From Phaeocystidibacter luteus (lineage in GTDB: Bacteria; Bacteroidota; Bacteroidia; Flavobacteriales; Schleiferiaceae): DNA of 64,000 bases. Positions 3,690-58,938 of this stretch are shown here, piece after piece (positions within the stretch are counted from its first letter, which is position 1; each line of letters begins with the position of its first letter). The stretch covers positions 1 to 64,000 of the forward strand of contig NZ_WBVO01000012.1 of NCBI RefSeq assembly GCF_008933115.1. Reading direction: 5' to 3'. The translations under genes and the position numbers were made by a program. Below the pieces are notes generated by a model. The model saw only the letters and a program-made list of their open reading frames with translations, was not told the DNA's origin and made no database searches.

Positions 3690-5357
3690 ATGAAAAAAGC
3701 GACCCTGCTATTATTGTTTCTACCTGCATTAGGATGGGGACAACCTCTTCAAGGCGACACCGTCGATTTTAAACGAACCCGATACGAGGTTCAAGCAGAC
3801 GGTAATCTCAATCTCGTTCGAGGCGATAACATCAATCACATCTACCAAGAATCCCTCTGGTTTAGCGGTTATTCGTACGGTACCGATACCATCCATCACA
3901 ATTCCGTTCAAACCTACCGCCAAGATCGAACGAGCTTCTTTCCCGGCCCTATTTCTTCCGATACAGCATCCTTCGATTACTGGAACCGAACCTGGACGGT
4001 CACCTCCGGGATGGTCGACAGCCTAAAAAACGGCTGGTATTTCGCTATTCCGGAACCGCTTCTCAGTTGGCCCGCTCATGGGCGTGCACAGTTTTCCGAG
4101 GCTCAAGACCTTGCACCTTTTGTGGATGTCAATAACAATGGAGTGTACGAACCCCAGATCGGTGATTACCCAGTCATAAAAGGCGATGTATGCACCATTG
4201 CCATTTTTAACGACTGGCAATACCGCGGCTTTACACAGTATTGGTCATTTGTGATGGAAGGTATCGCGTGGTATTACATGCTAGATGGGGATGACATTGA
4301 AGATCGAACCGTTTTCACCGAGTTCGAAATCGTCAACAAGAGTAACAAGACATACCACGACACGTGGCTAGGAGTTTTCGCCGATATCGATGTGGGTTAT
4401 GCCTCCATGAATCTTAGTGGAACCGACATCGCTCGCCACGCGGTTTACAGTTACCCCATGAACTCCATGGCAAACGGTGTAAACTTTCCTGGTGAATCTC
4501 CATGGGCGAGTATGGTGATTCTTGAAGGTCCAGCGGCCGATGCCTTCGACGGTAGAGATAACAACTGGGATGGATGCGTGGATGGCATCTCCGATCAAGT
4601 TGGAAACTGTATTTCCGAGGATCCTTCCAACGGAATCGTAGAGCCCATCACCATGATGCGCTCCATGAGCTTCACCAACACCTTTGGTCAACATAATTCG
4701 AACCCAAATCTCGACATCCATTTTCGCAATTACCTCCGCGGAAGATGGCGAGATGAGACGCACATCTTAATCGAAAATGCGAGTGGTTTTGGGTCAACCT
4801 CAAATGGTGACGGCCATAACCCGAGTGCCGCAATGGGTATTTCACACTATGTTTTCCCAGGGAATACAGCTTCGCCAGATCTGCTTTCACTTCCTTCTAA
4901 CCCGGTTAACTTCTTCGAATCGCCCGCAGATGCGGAAGACAAGCGCGTGGTCGCTTCAATGGGGACATTCACTTGGGAACCGAACGAAAAAATCACCCTA
5001 AAGTATGCCAGCGTTTGGGGGCGAGAAGACACATCTGCCTTCGACAATATTCTCGACAGCATTGGTGCCGATATCGATAAACTCTTCCTGGCCTACAACA
5101 CAATTGGGCAATCTGAGAATTCTGCCCGCACTCAACAGTTGGTTGTAGGTCAGGATTTACAATTCTTATATGTTGAAAACCCTCATGACAGAGCCTTTGA
5201 GCTCGAAGTCATGGATCTTACTGGGAGGACGGTTGCGACTGGTCATGTAGGTGCATTTGGCCAAACGCAACTCCCGATTTCGGGACTCCCTCCAGGCGTT
5301 TATGTCTTGCGCACACCGGAATCAAATTTCTCCATTAAATGGATGAAACGGCCATAG
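3690..5357 (+). CDS. Secreted T9SS type A sorting domain protein, function unknown
   Basis: The start at 3690 is preferred over an in-frame ATG at 3654 because it gives a clean signal peptide (MKKATLLLLFLPALGWGQ). The mature protein is about 535 residues. It has many aromatic and acidic residues, a Ca-site-like DGRDNNWDGCVDG segment near residue 290 and an FTEFEIVNKSNKTYHDTW segment near 210, as seen in large extracellular Bacteroidota proteins of unknown function. The last 70 residues (FLYVENPHDR... LTGRTVATG... SGLPPGVYVLR) form a T9SS type A sorting domain. No catalytic family is recognised. The gene stands alone with a strong terminator after it. Confidence 0.8.
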   Translation: MKKATLLLLFLPALGWGQPLQGDTVDFKRTRYEVQADGNLNLVRGDNINHIYQESLWFSGYSYGTDTIHHNSVQTYRQDRTSFFPGPISSDTASFDYWNRTWTVTSGMVDSLKNGWYFAIPEPLLSWPAHGRAQFSEAQDLAPFVDVNNNGVYEPQIGDYPVIKGDVCTIAIFNDWQYRGFTQYWSFVMEGIAWYYMLDGDDIEDRTVFTEFEIVNKSNKTYHDTWLGVFADIDVGYASMNLSGTDIARHAVYSYPMNSMANGVNFPGESPWASMVILEGPAADAFDGRDNNWDGCVDGISDQVGNCISEDPSNGIVEPITMMRSMSFTNTFGQHNSNPNLDIHFRNYLRGRWRDETHILIENASGFGSTSNGDGHNPSAAMGISHYVFPGNTASPDLLSLPSNPVNFFESPADAEDKRVVASMGTFTWEPNEKITLKYASVWGREDTSAFDNILDSIGADIDKLFLAYNTIGQSENSARTQQLVVGQDLQFLYVENPHDRAFELEVMDLTGRTVATGHVGAFGQTQLPISGLPPGVYVLRTPESNFSIKWMKRP

Positions 5358-51679: not shown

Positions 51680-52294
51680 GTGGCCGTAGATGATACAGCT
51701 ATGAGCACATTGCAACAAACGAATTATTCGACAATGGCTATGGCCAGAGAAACCCGAAAGAGTGAAGAAGAGATCGTGGGTATGCTCCGGGCCGGAGATC
51801 GAGGTGTGATGGAATATTTATATGACCATTACTCTGGGGCTCTATACGGAGTATGTCTGAAGGTCGTCCAAGATGAAACAGCTGCACAGGATGTTTTACA
51901 GGATGCTTTCATCAAGATCTGGAAAAAGGGTGCGCAGTATGACCCGTCGAAAGGCAGACTGTTCACTTGGATGTTAAACATCGTGCGCAACACATCTATT
52001 GATTATTTGCGGTCTAAGGCCGTGAAGTATGAAATAAATGGAGATGAACGCGTATCGCACATCATCGAAACAAATAGTTCACAGGAGCTATCGACGGATG
52101 CGATCGGACTGCGGAAGCACATGAAGCAGTTGAGGAAGGAGGAACGAGAAATACTGGAATTGGCCTACTTCGGTGGCTACACTCAAGATGAGATTTCCAA
52201 GGAACTCGAGATTCCATTAGGTACGGTAAAAACTAGAGCTCGTAGGGCTTTGAATGATTTGAGAAAAATATTAGGAACTAGCGGTGGATATTAA
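51680..52294 (+). CDS. ECF-type RNA polymerase sigma factor
   Basis: A protein of about 200 residues. Region 2 is MEYLYDHYSGALYGVCLKVVQDE with QDVLQDAFIKIWKKG and FTWMLNIVRNTSIDYLRSK; region 4 is LRKEEREILELAYFGGYTQDE with LEIPLGTVKTRARRALNDL. The start is uncertain: GTG at 51680 or ATG at 51701 (MSTLQQTNYS). The gene overlaps the start of the anti-sigma gene by 11 bases, as in sigma/anti-sigma pairs of the SigK/RskA type. Confidence 0.9.
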   Translation: MAVDDTAMSTLQQTNYSTMAMARETRKSEEEIVGMLRAGDRGVMEYLYDHYSGALYGVCLKVVQDETAAQDVLQDAFIKIWKKGAQYDPSKGRLFTWMLNIVRNTSIDYLRSKAVKYEINGDERVSHIIETNSSQELSTDAIGLRKHMKQLRKEEREILELAYFGGYTQDEISKELEIPLGTVKTRARRALNDLRKILGTSGGY

Positions 52295-53129
52295 ACAATA
52301 CATAGGGTCTGGTATTCTGGAGGACTTTGTCCTCGGAATGACGTCCGAACAGGAACAGCGGGAGGTTCAGTGCCTGTCGAAGATCTATCCTGAGATTGCG
52401 TCTTACATCGCTACGATAGAAGACGAGCTCGCGGATGCGGTCATGGTCGACGCTGTAACCCCTCCACAAGATTTGAAATCCAGAATCTTGGAGAACTTGC
52501 CAGAGCGCGACGAGGCTGACTTGGCGCCGGTGGCAGAAAAGCCTGTAATGCAGGTGGTTCACGATGAAGAACCAGCAGTAGCACAGGAGCACAGCACTAA
52601 GCGCAACTTCCCTTGGGGAATTGCAGCATCACTTGTAGTGATTATTGGACTTGGCGGATTGTATATGAATGCGCTCACCAAAGCCAACACACAAGAAGGA
52701 GAGATATTAGAACTTACCACAGAGAAGGGGCTTGCTCAGGAGGAGATTGAGAGTCTGTCAGCTAGGAATAGCGCGCTTGCCTCAAACTTGGAAATCCTCA
52801 CGGATCCAGGAACGGAGCGAATTACCCTGAATGCAACGGGTGACCAAGCAGCTCAGGTGTTGGTCTACTGGAACCCAGAAACACAGGATGTACTGTTGGA
52901 GTCTGTAGACATGCCAGCAGTTCCGGAGGGAAGTCAGTACCAACTGTGGACTTTAGTAGACGGGCAACCGATAGACCAGGGCATGTTGCCGCTGGATGAT
53001 TCGGAAGGCTTGGCAAGAATGAAATCAGCAGGAGCTGCGGATGCATTCGCCATCACTTTGGAGCCTGAAGGAGGTTCGGTATCGCCTACCTTAGAAAAGT
53101 TGATTGTTCTCGGAACTGTAGAAGGTTAA
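52284..53129 (+). CDS. RskA-type anti-sigma factor
   Basis: A 281-residue membrane protein starting with GTG at 52284, inside the sigma gene. The N-terminal cytoplasmic part (SGILEDFVLGMTSEQEQREV) resembles the sigma-binding domain. A transmembrane helix lies near 110-128 (FPWGIAASLVVIIGLGGLYM). A coiled-coil (about 140-170) and a C-terminal RskA domain (YQLWTLVDGQPIDQGMLPLD, VSPTLEKLIVLGTVEG) follow. It should hold the sigma factor inactive until an envelope signal; the signal is unknown. Confidence 0.88.
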   Translation: MDIKQYIGSGILEDFVLGMTSEQEQREVQCLSKIYPEIASYIATIEDELADAVMVDAVTPPQDLKSRILENLPERDEADLAPVAEKPVMQVVHDEEPAVAQEHSTKRNFPWGIAASLVVIIGLGGLYMNALTKANTQEGEILELTTEKGLAQEEIESLSARNSALASNLEILTDPGTERITLNATGDQAAQVLVYWNPETQDVLLESVDMPAVPEGSQYQLWTLVDGQPIDQGMLPLDDSEGLARMKSAGAADAFAITLEPEGGSVSPTLEKLIVLGTVEG

Positions 53130-53181: not shown

Positions 53182-53255
53182 GGGCCCATAGCTCAGCTGG
53201 TTAGAGCAGTTGACTCATAATCAATTGGTCGCGGGTTCAAGTCCTGCTGGGCCCA
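53182..53255 (+). tRNA. tRNA with CAT anticodon (elongator Met or Ile2)
   Basis: A 74-base cloverleaf: acceptor GGGCCCA/TGGGCCC, discriminator A, D-loop GCTCAGCTGGTTAGAGC, anticodon loop CTCATAA (CAT), T-arm GCGGG-TTCAAGT-CCTGC. The body resembles the lysidine-modified tRNA-Ile2 of other bacteria at GACTCATAATC and TTGGTCGC, but an elongator tRNA-Met cannot be excluded without comparing the other CAT tRNAs of the genome. No encoded CCA. Confidence 0.88.
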
Positions 53256-53262
53256 CTGAAAC

Positions 53263-53298
53263 AAAAGCTCCGTCTGAAAAGGCGGAGCTTTTTTGTTT
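53263..53298 (+). terminator. Rho-independent terminator after the tRNA
   Basis: AAAAGCTCCG and CGGAGCTTTT form a ten-base stem around TCTGAAAAGG, followed by TTTTGTTTTG. Confidence 0.92.
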
Positions 53299-53376: not shown

Positions 53377-53700
53377 ATGGCTAATGGCTCTATGATTTCA
53401 AAAGCCGAGGCGAAAGCTTTGGTTGACAGATTTAAAGCAAATCCAACGAAGACGACGAATGCTTGTCAAGCGATGCTCTACGACCTTACAATGATAGAAC
53501 AGCTAAAAGGAGCAGCTCCCGAAGGTACAATTACGGCCGTACGTGTCTATTTTGGTATGAATGAAGACTTTTCACTTTGTACTGTTTTAGTAGGCTGCGA
53601 CTCTGCTGGGAACAACTACTATGGTGCAGGTGACGACATGTGCTTGGATTATGGTACGAGATGTCCTTCTGATTGCGGAGATGACACCTTAGGTAGCTAA
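53377..53700 (+). CDS. Small Cys-containing protein preceding a signalling module, function unknown
   Basis: A 107-residue protein without signal peptide. After MANGSMISKAEAKALVDRF comes a charged helix, a TNACQAMLYDLTMIEQL segment, TAVRVYFGMNEDFSLCTVLV as a beta core, and a Cys-rich acidic end (MCLDYGTRCPSDCGDDTLGS). I recall Bacteroidota hypothetical proteins with a MANG-start, a VRIYY-like core and a C-P-x-x-C tail in front of a membrane protein and kinase, but the family has no function known to me. The 7-TM gene starts eight bases downstream. Confidence 0.7.
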   Translation: MANGSMISKAEAKALVDRFKANPTKTTNACQAMLYDLTMIEQLKGAAPEGTITAVRVYFGMNEDFSLCTVLVGCDSAGNNYYGAGDDMCLDYGTRCPSDCGDDTLGS

Positions 53701-53707
53701 GTCCAAC

Positions 53708-54406
53708 TTGGACATAGAAGCGTCATATCGGTTCTTAATTGAGGTTAAGAATGTACTGCGGATAAGCTTGTTGCTTTTGCCAGTATTTCAATACCACATG
53801 CACAAGAATATTGGGGGGATGTTAATCCTCCCGATTCTTGTTTCTATTGGCTTTGACGTTTACGGGAACTACTTGGTTGCTTCCGGTAGCTGGTCGATTA
53901 TCATAGGATTTTTATATCCTATCGTGGCGCTTCTCGTAAGTTTTGCCACTTTTGGATTACTTATTCATACTCGTTCCTTGTTTCGTGTAGCTTTCGCTGT
54001 TACTGCACTCACCTTGATAGCTTGTTTATCATTCGTATGGTTCATTCACGGCGTTGACAGAACCAATATCATGAGTACGACATTTATCTTTGGAATAGCA
54101 GCACCGGCAGCTTTAGGTGTTGCGATTATGCTTGAGTTAGACAATGTCGTCAGAAGCGACGCTGGCTTGAGCAAGTACATTTCAATACTCAACAGGACTT
54201 GGATTTTTTACTTTGCCGCTGGCTATGCCAATTGGAATATTAGATACTTCACTATTCAAATTGAAGATCAGTTAATGCGTCGGTCTATTGATCTAGGACT
54301 AGACTTTCTTCATGTGGTAGGATACTTTGCCTTGATAGTTAGCTACCTCTACGTCATCAACAAAACCAACCTCAAACCACTTTGGAAGATTCCTCAGACC
54401 TCATAG
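53708..54406 (+). CDS. Seven-helix membrane protein of a signalling module
   Basis: A 232-residue membrane protein from a TTG start (53708). Hydrophobic segments: FLIEVKNVLRISLLLLPV, GGMLILPILVSIGFDVYG, WSIIIGFLYPIVALLVSF, FRVAFAVTALTLIACLSF, IMSTTFIFGIAAPAALGV, TWIFYFAAGYANW and LHVVGYFALIVSYLYVI. An ATG at codon 31 would remove the first. The gene overlaps the histidine kinase start by 25 bases in another frame. Since the kinase itself has no sensory domain, this protein is a candidate for the sensor part of a split receptor (inference). Confidence 0.72.
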   Translation: MDIEASYRFLIEVKNVLRISLLLLPVFQYHMHKNIGGMLILPILVSIGFDVYGNYLVASGSWSIIIGFLYPIVALLVSFATFGLLIHTRSLFRVAFAVTALTLIACLSFVWFIHGVDRTNIMSTTFIFGIAAPAALGVAIMLELDNVVRSDAGLSKYISILNRTWIFYFAAGYANWNIRYFTIQIEDQLMRRSIDLGLDFLHVVGYFALIVSYLYVINKTNLKPLWKIPQTS

Positions 54407-55149
54407 AATTTCTATTTCTCACTTTGGGAGGCGTTTTAATTCTTCTCATCGTGGTCTTTTCTGCTTTCTATGCCCTCAATGTTTCCCGCAAAAGAGTCAT
54501 TCAGGCAGAGAAAGAAAAGGCGAAAATTGCTCTTGAAGAAAAGCAAAAAATGCTCGAAGCTTCCATTCAGGGCGGTGAACGCGAACGAAAGAAAATTGCC
54601 GAGGAACTGCACGACCACATCAATGCACAATTGACCGTCGTGCGCATGTCGCTCGTACGCGAAGAGGGTGAGAACATTTCAAACGCGGTTGAATCTATCG
54701 ACCACACCATACAAGAGCTGCGCGGAATCAGTAGAGAATTGATGCCGCCCGTGCTCGAGCGTTTCGGATTGCTTGATGCTCTAGATGATTTGTTCGACAA
54801 GGTGGAGAAGGCTGGGGAGCTTCGAATCGATTTCAACGCCCCAGAGGAGTGGGAGTACAAAGACATCGATCGGGATTTGGCGTTGTACCGCATCGTTCAG
54901 GAGTTTATTCAGAATACCATAAAGTATGCGGAGGCCTCGAAGCTAGATATTTCCGTGCAAGCCGACGGACATCATATCTACATGAACCTTAGAGACAATG
55001 GTGTGGGCTTCGATATGAATGAGGTTGAAAGCGGCCTGGGTACCCGAAACGTCAATTCCCGTGCAGAATACCTAGGCGGCACGGCAAATCTGAGTTCATC
55101 TCCCGGAAAGGGGGTATCTTTGAGTGTAACTGTCCCATTGAACACCTAA
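54382..55149 (+). CDS. NarL-type sensor histidine kinase with a single membrane helix
   Basis: A 255-residue kinase from TTG (54382). One transmembrane segment (FLFLTLGGVLILLIVVFSAF, about 9-28), a coiled-coil (RKRVIQAEKEKAKIALEEKQ), the HisKA_3 H-box ERKKIAEELHDHINAQLTVV (His near 73), and a HATPase domain (LRDNGVGFDMNEVESGLGTR). It has essentially no extracellular or PAS sensor, so the input must come from elsewhere, likely the overlapping 7-TM protein. No ATG in frame preserves the helix (the first lies after it), which supports TTG. The response regulator follows after six bases. Confidence 0.85.
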   Translation: MEDSSDLIEFLFLTLGGVLILLIVVFSAFYALNVSRKRVIQAEKEKAKIALEEKQKMLEASIQGGERERKKIAEELHDHINAQLTVVRMSLVREEGENISNAVESIDHTIQELRGISRELMPPVLERFGLLDALDDLFDKVEKAGELRIDFNAPEEWEYKDIDRDLALYRIVQEFIQNTIKYAEASKLDISVQADGHHIYMNLRDNGVGFDMNEVESGLGTRNVNSRAEYLGGTANLSSSPGKGVSLSVTVPLNT

Positions 55150-55155
55150 CTCGAC

Positions 55156-55818
55156 ATGTCTACAGAGAAGATCAAAGTCATTCTTGCCGAAGACCAGCAG
55201 CTCGTGAGAGCCGCGCTTGTGAGTCTGCTGAACGACCTAATCAACATTGAGGTTGTTGCAGAGGCTGAAGACGGAGTCCAATTGTTGAGTTTGTTGGAAA
55301 GCACCCCTTGCGACATTGTGGTTACCGATATCCGAATGCCGAAGATGGATGGCATTGAGGCCGTTTCGAAAATCGGGGAATACTACCCTGAGGTTGGCGT
55401 TATTGGGCTTTCGCAGCACGATGATAACGACATAATCGTAGAGTTTATTAGGGCTGGCGGACGTGGTTTCTTGTTGAAGAATGCAGATCCGACGGAGGTT
55501 GAAAAAGCCATACACACGGTTCGTGAAACGGGGCATTACTTGAATGCGAAGGTTTCGCAATCGTTGTTTCAGAACAGCTTTAGAGCGCGTAGGCGAAGAA
55601 ACAACTCCAGGTTTAATGGGGTGACAGAACGCGAGGTTGAGATATTGAACCTCCTCAGTAGGGAATATACGGCGGCGGAGATGGCTCAGAAGTTGAGTAT
55701 TTCGCCTCGTACGGTGGAGAAGCACATCTCGCACTTGCATCAAAAATTCGAGACCAAGAAGACGATTGGTCTTGTGCTCTGTGCGCTTCGTGAAGGCATC
55801 ATCCAGATGGATATTTAG
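55156..55818 (+). CDS. NarL/FixJ family response regulator
   Basis: A 220-residue two-domain regulator: receiver (about 5-122) with the acidic pocket in VILAEDQQLV, phosphoacceptor Asp in DIVVTDIRMPKMDG and Lys in FLLKNADP; LuxR-type helix-turn-helix at about 150-215 (LTEREVEIL-like VTEREVEILNLLSREYTAAE, LSISPRTVEKHISHLHQKF). Partner of the kinase at 54382. Confidence 0.93.
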   Translation: MSTEKIKVILAEDQQLVRAALVSLLNDLINIEVVAEAEDGVQLLSLLESTPCDIVVTDIRMPKMDGIEAVSKIGEYYPEVGVIGLSQHDDNDIIVEFIRAGGRGFLLKNADPTEVEKAIHTVRETGHYLNAKVSQSLFQNSFRARRRRNNSRFNGVTEREVEILNLLSREYTAAEMAQKLSISPRTVEKHISHLHQKFETKKTIGLVLCALREGIIQMDI

Positions 55819-56126: not shown

Positions 56127-56164
56127 AGAAGGTCGATTACACCTAATCGGCCTTCTTCCTTTTT
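56127..56164 (+). terminator. Rightward terminator overlapping the XRE 3' end
   Basis: AGAAGGTCGATT-ACACCT-AATCGGCCTTCT forms a twelve-base stem (one G-T pair), followed by TCCTTTTT on the plus strand. It lies partly inside the 3' end of the leftward XRE gene (stop at 56143), so it belongs to a rightward transcript. Confidence 0.7.
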
Positions 56165-56529
56165 GCAGATATTCCAAGTTGGATGGCCTCGATGATGTTG
56201 GCCTTGTCTTCCTCAGATTGGGGGCCTTTAGGCAAGTGAATGTGTATGTGGTTTCCGTCCTTTTCTCCTGAGTAGGTTATGGTTTGATCTGCGGCTTTGA
56301 CATCGTCGCCATCGAGCAGAACCTTTGAATACTCCGAGAAGAAATCGTGGTTGAGACAGCGCGATATTTCCATCAGGAGTTCGGTATCAATGGTATGTCG
56401 GCCAAAGATGTTGTGGACGTTTTGTCGGGTTCGATTAATCATCTTGGCGAAGTGCGAAATTTTCATTCCGCGCTCTTCTACAATGGACTTAATCCGTTCA
56501 CCGATAATGATTTTGGACGGGTTTGACAT
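56143..56529 (-). CDS. XRE-family transcriptional regulator
   Basis: A 128-residue protein with a Cro/C1-type HTH at about 10-65 (GERIKSIVEERGMKISHFAK, INRTRQNVHNIFGRHTIDT). The C-terminal part (GNHIHIHLPKGPQSEEDKANIIEAI) holds a His-rich strand. A dyad TTTACG-TTTGGT-CGTAAA (56568-56585) lies 38 bases upstream and may be its operator. Confidence 0.82.
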   Translation of the reverse strand: MSNPSKIIIGERIKSIVEERGMKISHFAKMINRTRQNVHNIFGRHTIDTELLMEISRCLNHDFFSEYSKVLLDGDDVKAADQTITYSGEKDGNHIHIHLPKGPQSEEDKANIIEAIQLGISAKRKKAD

Positions 56530-56817: not shown

Positions 56818-58938
56818 ATGAAGAATCTATTTCTCTCAATTGTGGCTTTGTTTGCCACTGCATCTATCACAGCCCAAACTGTTACTAATCTCAACAATGC
56901 TGGCCCGGGCTCATTGCGTAATGAAGTGCTCAATAGCCAGCCTGGAGATGTGATTGATTTCTCGCCAGCGCTTTTTGCCAATGGCAATGCTACGCTCAAT
57001 TTGGAATATGCAATACCTATACTGCATAGTCTGACGATTAATGGTTATCTAAATAATGGAGATACATTAATCATTAATGGACAAGATACTTCACAGGCGT
57101 TTTTTGTTGATGGTACGGCTGGCTCCTTAACTACGGAGTTGAAGTTAAGTGATATGGTAATAGAAGACTGTAAAAAGTATTCATCTAATCCATTAGTATT
57201 CAACTCGCATGGCGGAGCCATTATGGCGTTGGACATAGCTAGACTAGAATTAGATGATGTTCATTTCAGGAATAATCGTGTGAGTGGAGACGGTAGAGGA
57301 GGTGCTATTTACAGCAATGGAGTGGACTCTTTATTCATTCGTAATTGTACTTTCGTCAGAAATCGGGCTGCCACATACGCTATTTCAAATGGAGGTGGTT
57401 GGTCAGGAGGCATTCGCTTAGAGGCGGGCTATTTGTCTATAGATTCCTCCCTGTTCTTAGGGAATGAAAGTGGAGGTAGGGGGGCTGCACTCAGTACTCT
57501 AGATGCGCATGATGTTACAATCTCTAACTCATCGTTCCGCAATAACATAGCAGGTCTTGATACTAATTCTGCTCAAGTTAAAAGGGGAGGAGCTATTCTA
57601 TTTTGGCTCACTGCAGAGTATACACTAAAGAATTGTCTCTTCGAAGGGAATTATGCTCCGGAATCGGGAGGAGCCATAGAAAAGATAGCAGGATTTAATC
57701 CATCGGCTAATTTTATCATGGAGGATTGCATTTTTAGAAATAACGAGTCTGGAGGAAATGCTGGTGCGGTAAGTGTGACTAGTCAGCCGTTGGTTCAAAA
57801 AAATTGCACTTTTGAATCAAATATTGCTGGACGAAGGGGAGGCGCATTGGTGCTCTTTAGAAGCTCAGCATTAATTGAGAGATCAAGCTTCGTAAATGAC
57901 TCGGCTGCCGATGGTGCGGCTGTATATTTGGGAGATAGTGTAGTGAATTTCGTTAATTCCACTTTTATCACAGATCGAACTAGTAATGAACTAATTCTCT
58001 TTAGTCAGTTTTCATCGGACTCGTTGTATTTACACAATTGTATATTCTCCATTGCAAATGGGGTCGATGTAATTAGTGGCAATAATGCGGTAGAGAGTTT
58101 GGGGTACAATGCTTTTTCGTCCTCACCTAGCTTTGCAATTGGATCAGATCTGACAAGCGTTACACCAGCCATGCTAGACTTGGGCCCTCTCCAAATGAAC
58201 GGAGGATCAACACCTACCTTAATGCCTGGCCCAAATTCGGTTGCCCTCAATGCAGGCAATCCTAACGACTTCTCACCGGCACAGAATGGGCCAATTTATG
58301 GTTTACGAGAGATTGGAGCGGCAGAGTCACGCGTGATATCTTATGACACAACGTTAGTCTGCGGCAACATTTCTTGGTGGGGCAACAACTACAGCACGCC
58401 CGGCACATACTCCGACACCGCCTACAATGCGAACTCAATCGATTCAGTTGGAGTTCTAGTGTTGTACAGTCAGGACACCTCCATTGTGAACCGAAACGGT
58501 ACTCTTGTGGCTCTCGAGCAATCGCAAGGAACCTCCTACCAATGGGTAGATTGTGCGAATGGGTTCTTGCCGGTTACAGGAGCAATAGATTCGACCTTTC
58601 TTCCCACGGCGAACGGAAGTTATGCGGTTGTGCTCACAAACGGATCCTGCTCGGACACTTCTGATTGCATCAATTACAACGAGGTGGGCATCGATGAACA
58701 ATCGACAAGACCATTGTTAACTTTCTATCCGAATCCAACAAACGGCGGCCTCACGCTGAACTCACTCGATAATCTTCCAAAACAACTTCAGGTTCTAGAT
58801 TTATATGGCAGAACCATTTCGACTCTCAAGGTGCCAAGTAATGAAATTCAGCTTCCAGCTTTGAGCAAAGGAATCTACCTCTTGAAATGGGAGTTTGAAG
58901 GAGGGGTCGTTCAGGTGGATAGGGTTGTGGTGGAGTGA
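56818..58938 (+). CDS. Secreted parallel beta-helix protein with T9SS type A sorting domain
   Basis: A 706-residue protein with signal peptide (MKNLFLSIVALFATASITAQ). Residues about 20-500 form a right-handed parallel beta-helix with repeated GGAI and FRNN/FEGN motifs (HGGAIMALDIARLELDDVHF, GGAIYSNGVDSLFIRNCTF, GGAIEKIAG), and a pectate-lyase-like choice-of-anchor pattern (LGPLQMNGGSTPTLMPGPNS). The last 75 residues (PLLTFYPNPTNGGLTLNS to the end) are a T9SS type A domain. DNA composition changes near 58330: the helix part is AT-rich, the tail is markedly richer in G/C, which suggests a mosaic gene. The substrate is unknown; polysaccharide binding or cleavage is possible. Confidence 0.82.
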   Translation: MKNLFLSIVALFATASITAQTVTNLNNAGPGSLRNEVLNSQPGDVIDFSPALFANGNATLNLEYAIPILHSLTINGYLNNGDTLIINGQDTSQAFFVDGTAGSLTTELKLSDMVIEDCKKYSSNPLVFNSHGGAIMALDIARLELDDVHFRNNRVSGDGRGGAIYSNGVDSLFIRNCTFVRNRAATYAISNGGGWSGGIRLEAGYLSIDSSLFLGNESGGRGAALSTLDAHDVTISNSSFRNNIAGLDTNSAQVKRGGAILFWLTAEYTLKNCLFEGNYAPESGGAIEKIAGFNPSANFIMEDCIFRNNESGGNAGAVSVTSQPLVQKNCTFESNIAGRRGGALVLFRSSALIERSSFVNDSAADGAAVYLGDSVVNFVNSTFITDRTSNELILFSQFSSDSLYLHNCIFSIANGVDVISGNNAVESLGYNAFSSSPSFAIGSDLTSVTPAMLDLGPLQMNGGSTPTLMPGPNSVALNAGNPNDFSPAQNGPIYGLREIGAAESRVISYDTTLVCGNISWWGNNYSTPGTYSDTAYNANSIDSVGVLVLYSQDTSIVNRNGTLVALEQSQGTSYQWVDCANGFLPVTGAIDSTFLPTANGSYAVVLTNGSCSDTSDCINYNEVGIDEQSTRPLLTFYPNPTNGGLTLNSLDNLPKQLQVLDLYGRTISTLKVPSNEIQLPALSKGIYLLKWEFEGGVVQVDRVVVE

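Follow-up and report, generated by a model that had tools for sequence, protein, structure and literature searches.

How a histidine kinase with almost no part outside the membrane receives its signal is the question raised by a cassette of four genes in Phaeocystidibacter luteus (Bacteroidota; Flavobacteriales). The genes lie within a stretch of 64,000 nucleotides (contig NZ_WBVO01000012.1, positions 1 to 64,000), hereafter the window, and encode a small protein (S), a membrane protein (T), a histidine kinase (K), and a response regulator (R). The features are as follows.

53182..53256, plus strand: tRNA gene with CAT anticodon, just 5' of the cassette; context, outside the system
53263..53292, plus strand: terminator-like hairpin between the tRNA gene and S; context
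53377..53700, plus strand: S, small protein of 107 aa, ATG start, C-terminal CPxxC, without leader or known family
53708..54406, plus strand: T, seven-helix membrane protein of 232 aa, TTG start, N-out/C-in, without known family
54382..55149, plus strand: K, histidine kinase of 255 aa, TTG start, one N-terminal helix, HisKA_3 (His77) and HATPase_c
55156..55818, plus strand: R, NarL-type response regulator of 220 aa, ATG start, REC (Response_reg) and GerE

The initial annotation had described a small protein, a 7-TM protein, a kinase, and a NarL regulator, and the open reading frames and coordinates match this description. The 25-base overlap that it gave for T and K is exact; the gap between S and T, however, is 7 bases and not eight. 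The reading frames of T (53708–54406) and K (54382–55149) both begin with TTG, as annotated. These starts are plausible since two relatives of the same genus show similar gaps and overlaps, with first starts (mechanically chosen) of GTG/TTG for T and ATG/GTG for K. The window S contains six cysteines (residues 30, 68, 74, 89, 96, and 100), three of them within the final 19 residues, which agrees with the C-terminal Cys cluster noted before.

Two further genomes of this genus have both the tRNA gene and the cassette in the corresponding place, preceded by the same genes for a sigma factor and an anti-sigma factor. In the window, an ECF-type sigma factor and an RskA-type anti-sigma factor (51680–53129), conserved in the genus, lie just 5' of the tRNA gene. 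The position of the hairpin between the tRNA gene and S suggests that transcription of the cassette starts at a promoter of its own, 3' of the hairpin. Apart from this hairpin and an AT-rich palindrome, no regulator-binding repeats were found 5' of S, and little of the sequence there is kept within the genus. On the 3' side, a small HTH_26-like regulator is encoded on the minus strand (56143–56529), and both same-genus relatives also have it close to their cassette. Positions 56818–58938 encode a 706-aa protein; by eye, it seems to consist of beta-helix repeats and to end in a type IX secretion sorting region.

K carries HisKA_3 (residues 68–124) and HATPase_c (166–254), and R carries Response_reg and GerE. 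All four domains score over the Pfam cut-offs, and the K/R pair is a HisKA_3/NarL two-component system, the NarL regulator being as first annotated. The two kinase domains stand behind a single hydrophobic N-terminal segment with almost no outer part, and Pfam detected no sensor domain in the window K; the earlier description of a one-helix kinase without a sensing domain is borne out. Across the cassettes, the phospho-accepting His lies at median residue 75, which indicates that K has no sensor of its own. Kinase orthologues with upstream sensor domains, which the initial annotation had set against its own reading, were found in part: PAS-like parts occur in the kinases of six loci (L138, L141, L158, L161, L167, and L172), but they are located downstream of the helix. 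Where these kinases are complete, HisKA, hybrid, or (L161) HisKA_3-like parts follow, all domains being named by eye. At least three of the six loci belong to other phyla (Calditrichota, Ignavibacteria). S and T are present in all six; the kinase thus varies while S and T stay.

The same gene order, which was to be sought in Bacteroidota, recurs widely there and in other phyla. Scanning with four profiles detected all of S-T-K-R in 117 of 170 distinct loci (60 + 80 + 40 = 180, less 10 duplicates), many of the incomplete loci ending at a contig edge. Besides Bacteroidota, the cassette was found in Neomarinimicrobiota, Calditrichota, Ignavibacteria, and one Gemmatimonadales bin. Confinement of the order to the window genome is ruled out by this recurrence, and its conservation across genera and phyla excludes chance. 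A search of 88 genomes of the family with the single S as query matched 10 at E ≤ 0.01, one of them the genome of the window itself. On inspection of the other nine, the order S, multi-TM protein, one-TM kinase, regulator was present in eight and absent in L017; among the eight is L018, whose contig ends within the regulator. An alignment of eight S matched 44 of 295 class genomes (33 of 156 genera) at E ≤ 0.001, and the 50 further matches of this search were all fetched. A scan of named genome contigs with S yielded 98 relatives, of which the best 80 were taken; going by record title, 10 of these 80 are from outside Bacteroidota (KSB1, 1; Neomarinimicrobiota/Marinimicrobia, 4; Calditrichota, 1; Ignavibacteria/Ignavibacteriae/Ignavibacteriales, 3; Gemmatimonadales, 1). 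T diverges fast, and a search with the single T sequence was therefore uninformative (matches in only 3 of 88 genomes). An alignment of 90 T matched 85 of 295 class genomes at E ≤ 1e-5 (57 of 156 genera; no more than six matches in any one genome) and 58 of 296 phylum genomes at E ≤ 1e-8 (no more than eight in any one genome).

Among the 130 loci anchored on S, all four genes were detected in 91, ST only in 11, STK in 9, S only in 7, S-KR in 5, ST-R in 2, TKR in 2, S-K in 1, and none in 2. Four of the five S-KR loci (L055, L016, L124, and L130) contain a multi-TM reading frame of the right size that was missed by the T profile. The 40 loci anchored on T are a selection of T matches that had no known S alongside. 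All four genes were detected in 26 of them, TKR without detected S in 8, STK in 2, ST in 2, T only in 1, and TK in 1. The kinase follows T directly in 37 of the 40 and after one extra gene in two more (L239, L245), and by the profile S lies directly 5' of T in 30. In some TKR loci (e.g., L230, by eye), a protein encoded upstream ends in a CPP-like motif and escaped the S profile; no S-like upstream protein is visible by eye in L248 to L250. Because S stands directly 5' of T in most T loci, it looks like a part of the signalling unit rather than a random regulated neighbour.

Incomplete loci away from contig edges include L066, L079, and L097, which have no regulator, L176 (T without kinase), and L240 (T without S and without kinase). 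Four loci (L017, L072, L098, and L100) contain a lone S without T, K, or R; it has a hydrophobic N-terminal segment in all four and lies at 4283–4717 in L017. The S matches of L099 and L101 were rejected as false. No conserved target gene was found beside the cassette, only extra regulators or kinases and small local clusters, and there is no further gene that generally accompanies it.

Over the 117 complete cassettes, the median gap between S and T is 6 bases, T and K overlap in 105 cassettes (most commonly by 22 bases, in 30 of them), and K and R overlap in 73 (most commonly by 4 bases, in 26). Starts were chosen mechanically; if K is instead taken to begin at its first ATG, the overlap with T remains in 87 of the 117. 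No T-kinase fusion was seen among the T matches listed in the class and phylum searches, in which the largest open frame was 304 aa, and this makes the T/K split a fixed feature. An apparent fusion in L175 (reading frame of 481 aa) was discarded, as a re-scan detected T there as a reading frame of its own and the long frame is probably a frame artefact. The distance correlations over the same cassettes were 0.77 for K-R, 0.63 for T-R, 0.61 for T-K, 0.26 for S-T, 0.26 for S-K, and 0.16 for S-R, and permutations reached at most 0.14; these values are due in part to common species history, and S is short and diverged.

The AlphaFold2 model of T, built from the window T and 89 relatives, is confident and has seven helices (pLDDT 89.3, pTM 0.85), as the term 7-TM protein had implied. 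Charge predicts the N-out/C-in topology in 89 of the 90 rows, with one tie; loops 1, 3, and 5 and the C-terminus are positive. Foldseek against the PDB gave nothing at E ≤ 0.001 (best E 0.12), and its list consisted almost wholly of GPCRs and microbial rhodopsins, proteorhodopsin (4kly_C) having a TM-score of 0.55. All 50 rows of VIA-align were GPCRs or GPCR-like, with Z 12.8 and rmsd 4.2 over 201 residues (9fte), but Z values below about 13 may reflect a common helical-bundle arrangement, and the chains were preselected by Foldseek. The likeness of the predicted model to GPCRs and rhodopsins would thus be a resemblance of fold only, and we claim no family membership. TM7 of T has no conserved Lys (in no TM7 column do more than 9% of the 90 T have one), which rules out a retinal receptor of the known kind. 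The most conserved residue is Tyr168 (76%); Cys reaches at most 13% and His at most 43% in any column, and this lack of a near-invariant Cys or His argues against an enzyme. The 90 rows of T are not covered by any Pfam family, and the sole transporter-type match was one weak DctQ.

S likewise matches no Pfam family (32 members) and no NCBIfam family (three members; one chance match with E 0.014 and 14.8 of 300 bits). The PDB contains no sequence relatives of S (best E 0.02) and no fold matches (best Foldseek E 0.34, best Z 2.5) to its model, which is of moderate quality (pTM 0.65). The CPxxC motif is present in 131 of 156 S. By hand, both cysteines of the pair were counted in 135 of the 156, the first only in 6, the second only in 0, and neither in 11; the remaining 4 were dropped as truncated (L169, L182) or two-domain (L216, L229). 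The pair tends to be kept or lost jointly and yet is dispensable, although the rows are related and count for less than independent ones. Most S, including that of the window, have no leader, and some are lipoprotein-like. A crude rule flagged a leader on 29 of 156 S (15 lipobox-like, 14 hydrophobic), all four lone S among them; by eye, the flags of L016 and L221 look false, and L234, hydrophobic by the rule, looks like a lipoprotein. When the exported/leaderless label is mapped on a FastTree tree of 139 T, it changes 9 times vs. 19.8 times in shuffles, and the starred branches force at least two changes, a rough number since many branches are long.

Several known systems come close to the cassette. 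Sensory rhodopsin I and HtrI (e.g., in Salinibacter ruber) are described as a separate 7-TM receptor in a probable operon with a membrane transducer (PMC3274258). The likeness consists in the separate gene for a 7-TM receptor and in signalling between two chains within the membrane. In contrast, T lacks a conserved retinal-binding Lys in TM7, HtrI is a two-helix transducer whereas the partner of T is a one-helix histidine kinase, and S has no counterpart there. BtsS is reported to have seven helices, the N-terminus outside, and ligand-binding residues on the periplasmic side (PMC10653868), and 5TMR kinases are reported to share the S-component fold (PMC11109136). The seven helices, the outer N-terminus, and receptor input into a histidine kinase would be common to BtsS/LytS-type proteins and the cassette; however, receptor and kinase form one chain in the former whereas T is unfused in the matches listed, the LytS-type regulator is LytTR whereas R is of the GerE type, and the Pfam model 5TMR-LYT had no match among 90 T. 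The 7TMR-DISM receptors are also bacterial 7-TM modules in signal transduction, but they are fused to output domains and have a large outer domain; their Pfam model had no match among 90 T, and no such fusion was seen among the T matches listed.

SaePQRS of Staphylococcus aureus is, in the published description, a set of four genes for a lipoprotein, a membrane protein, a regulator, and a kinase with little outer part, in which the lipoprotein SaeP and the four-helix membrane protein SaeQ form a complex with SaeS and induce its phosphatase activity (PMC5083920). Compared by description, SaeQ has four helices and T seven, and the gene order differs. LiaF, described as the inhibitory membrane protein of the LiaSR pair (PMC3543457), is another accessory membrane protein beside a kinase/regulator pair. 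K matched the NCBIfam model of LiaS with E 1.5e-27 and 96.7 bits against a cut-off of 450, which is below the equivalog score, and no LiaF-like Pfam match was found among 90 T. An AgrB-type peptidase was not found by Pfam among 90 T either, and the one-helix K has no agr-type multi-TM receptor part. The PADLOC anti-phage models gave no specific match for S and T and weak generic matches for K and R. By these tests, the cassette belongs to none of the families examined except the HisKA_3/NarL pairs; SaePQ was compared by description, and the likeness of T to GPCRs is one of fold.

On balance, with moderate confidence, we favour reading S, T, K, and R as a single signalling unit that would work as a split receptor kinase: T is the receiver, K the transducer, and S the partner of T. 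Gene order, domain content, and conservation fit the four-part unit with a sensorless kinase proposed initially. In favour of the split receptor are also the frequent T/K overlap, the absence of T-kinase fusions among the matches listed, the change of kinase type beside constant S and T, the predicted fold and topology of T, the T, K, and R distance correlations, and the leaders on S in some cassettes. The proposal that the 7-TM protein senses stands insofar as the separate T is the best candidate receptor; its receptor role is something we infer. T would take up the stimulus, whether this is a ligand reaching its outer face, one within the membrane, or S itself, and would hand on its state laterally to K's only transmembrane helix through a putative T-K contact. 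K would then phosphorylate R, the NarL-type regulator acting on DNA. S, a weakly supported candidate for a dedicated partner of T, would presumably contact T, and its lipoprotein forms would serve as co-receptor or ligand carrier on the outer face. Several results count against the split receptor: the weak S-T distance correlation, the eight of 40 T-anchored loci with TKR and no detected S, the four lone S, fold matches no better than E 0.12, and a Z value (12.8) within the range of common arrangements. No known export route was seen for leaderless S, and a single mechanism for both kinds of S is therefore strained.

A bolder and more doubtful version, which we put forward tentatively, is that T founds a large, unnamed bacterial family of GPCR-fold chemoreceptors. 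These would signal in trans via the single helix of the kinase they are paired with, and S would be a protein ligand or co-receptor dedicated to them, which evolution has shifted between the interior and the exterior of the cell.

We consider it unlikely, but the most serious of the alternatives, that T and S are accessory brakes which tune the kinase/phosphatase balance of a K that itself senses the state of the membrane or envelope. The SaeP/SaeQ complex with SaeS and the inhibitory LiaF are reported precedents (PMC5083920, PMC3543457), S is a lipoprotein in some cassettes, and LiaS is among the best NCBIfam matches of K, although far under the cut-off. With one helix and almost no outer part, however, K has little to sense with, and T retains seven helices and a receptor-like arrangement. 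There is a smaller chance that the CPxxC of leaderless S reports the thiol or metal state of the cytoplasm to T/K. The frequency of the motif, the joint keeping or loss of its two cysteines, and the four further Cys of the window S fit such redox or metal sensing; but the pair is missing from 11 S in otherwise ordinary cassettes, is also retained in exported forms of S, and leaves T unexplained. Peptide signalling of the agr kind, in which S would be a pheromone precursor that T processes or exports and to which K/R respond, is improbable. The order of small protein, multi-TM protein, kinase, and regulator and the Cys-bearing C-terminal tail of S recall it, but T has no conserved Cys or His for a protease, the folded part of S is conserved and so, across phyla, is its tail, which is not variable, and K has no multi-TM receptor part. 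That T is a transporter whose activity K reads is the least credible of all, for although bacterial receptors and transporters are reported to be able to share folds (PMC11109136), the weak DctQ was the only transporter family match among 90 T, and the best folds are receptors and rhodopsins, some of the latter being ion pumps.

If T is, as we favour, a receptor acting via a separate one-helix kinase, the cassette would be a natural two-chain receptor kinase in which sensing and catalysis are separable, swappable, and testable, and two protein families without a Pfam model would gain a likely role. If the wider chemoreceptor reading is true, this would be a widespread non-rhodopsin "receptor plus separate kinase" system of Bacteroidota and neighbouring phyla. 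Members of the S and T families are present in a large share of the sampled Bacteroidota genomes, with up to eight copies per genome. We found no description of such a cassette in the open-licence PMC literature, a scope that is no proof of absence. K and R are ordinary. As far as that literature shows, the S family, the T family, and the union of the four genes are undescribed, and the cassette seems to represent a family of bacterial sensing systems that is new to description.

The P. luteus genome itself has a second S-T-K-R cassette outside the window (locus L213, G000:C23, about 84193–87075, minus strand), in which S is lipoprotein-like, about 288 aa long, and, if an internal ATG is used, begins with a lipobox-type leader; a further kinase-like gene (481 aa) follows this cassette. 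Tandem copies of T were observed in L239, at G275:C1 (about 2383804–2386101), and at G441:C7 (about 162408–164861 and 250528–251937). Two S stand in a row in L218 and L221, and some S contain two copies of the domain (L158, L245).
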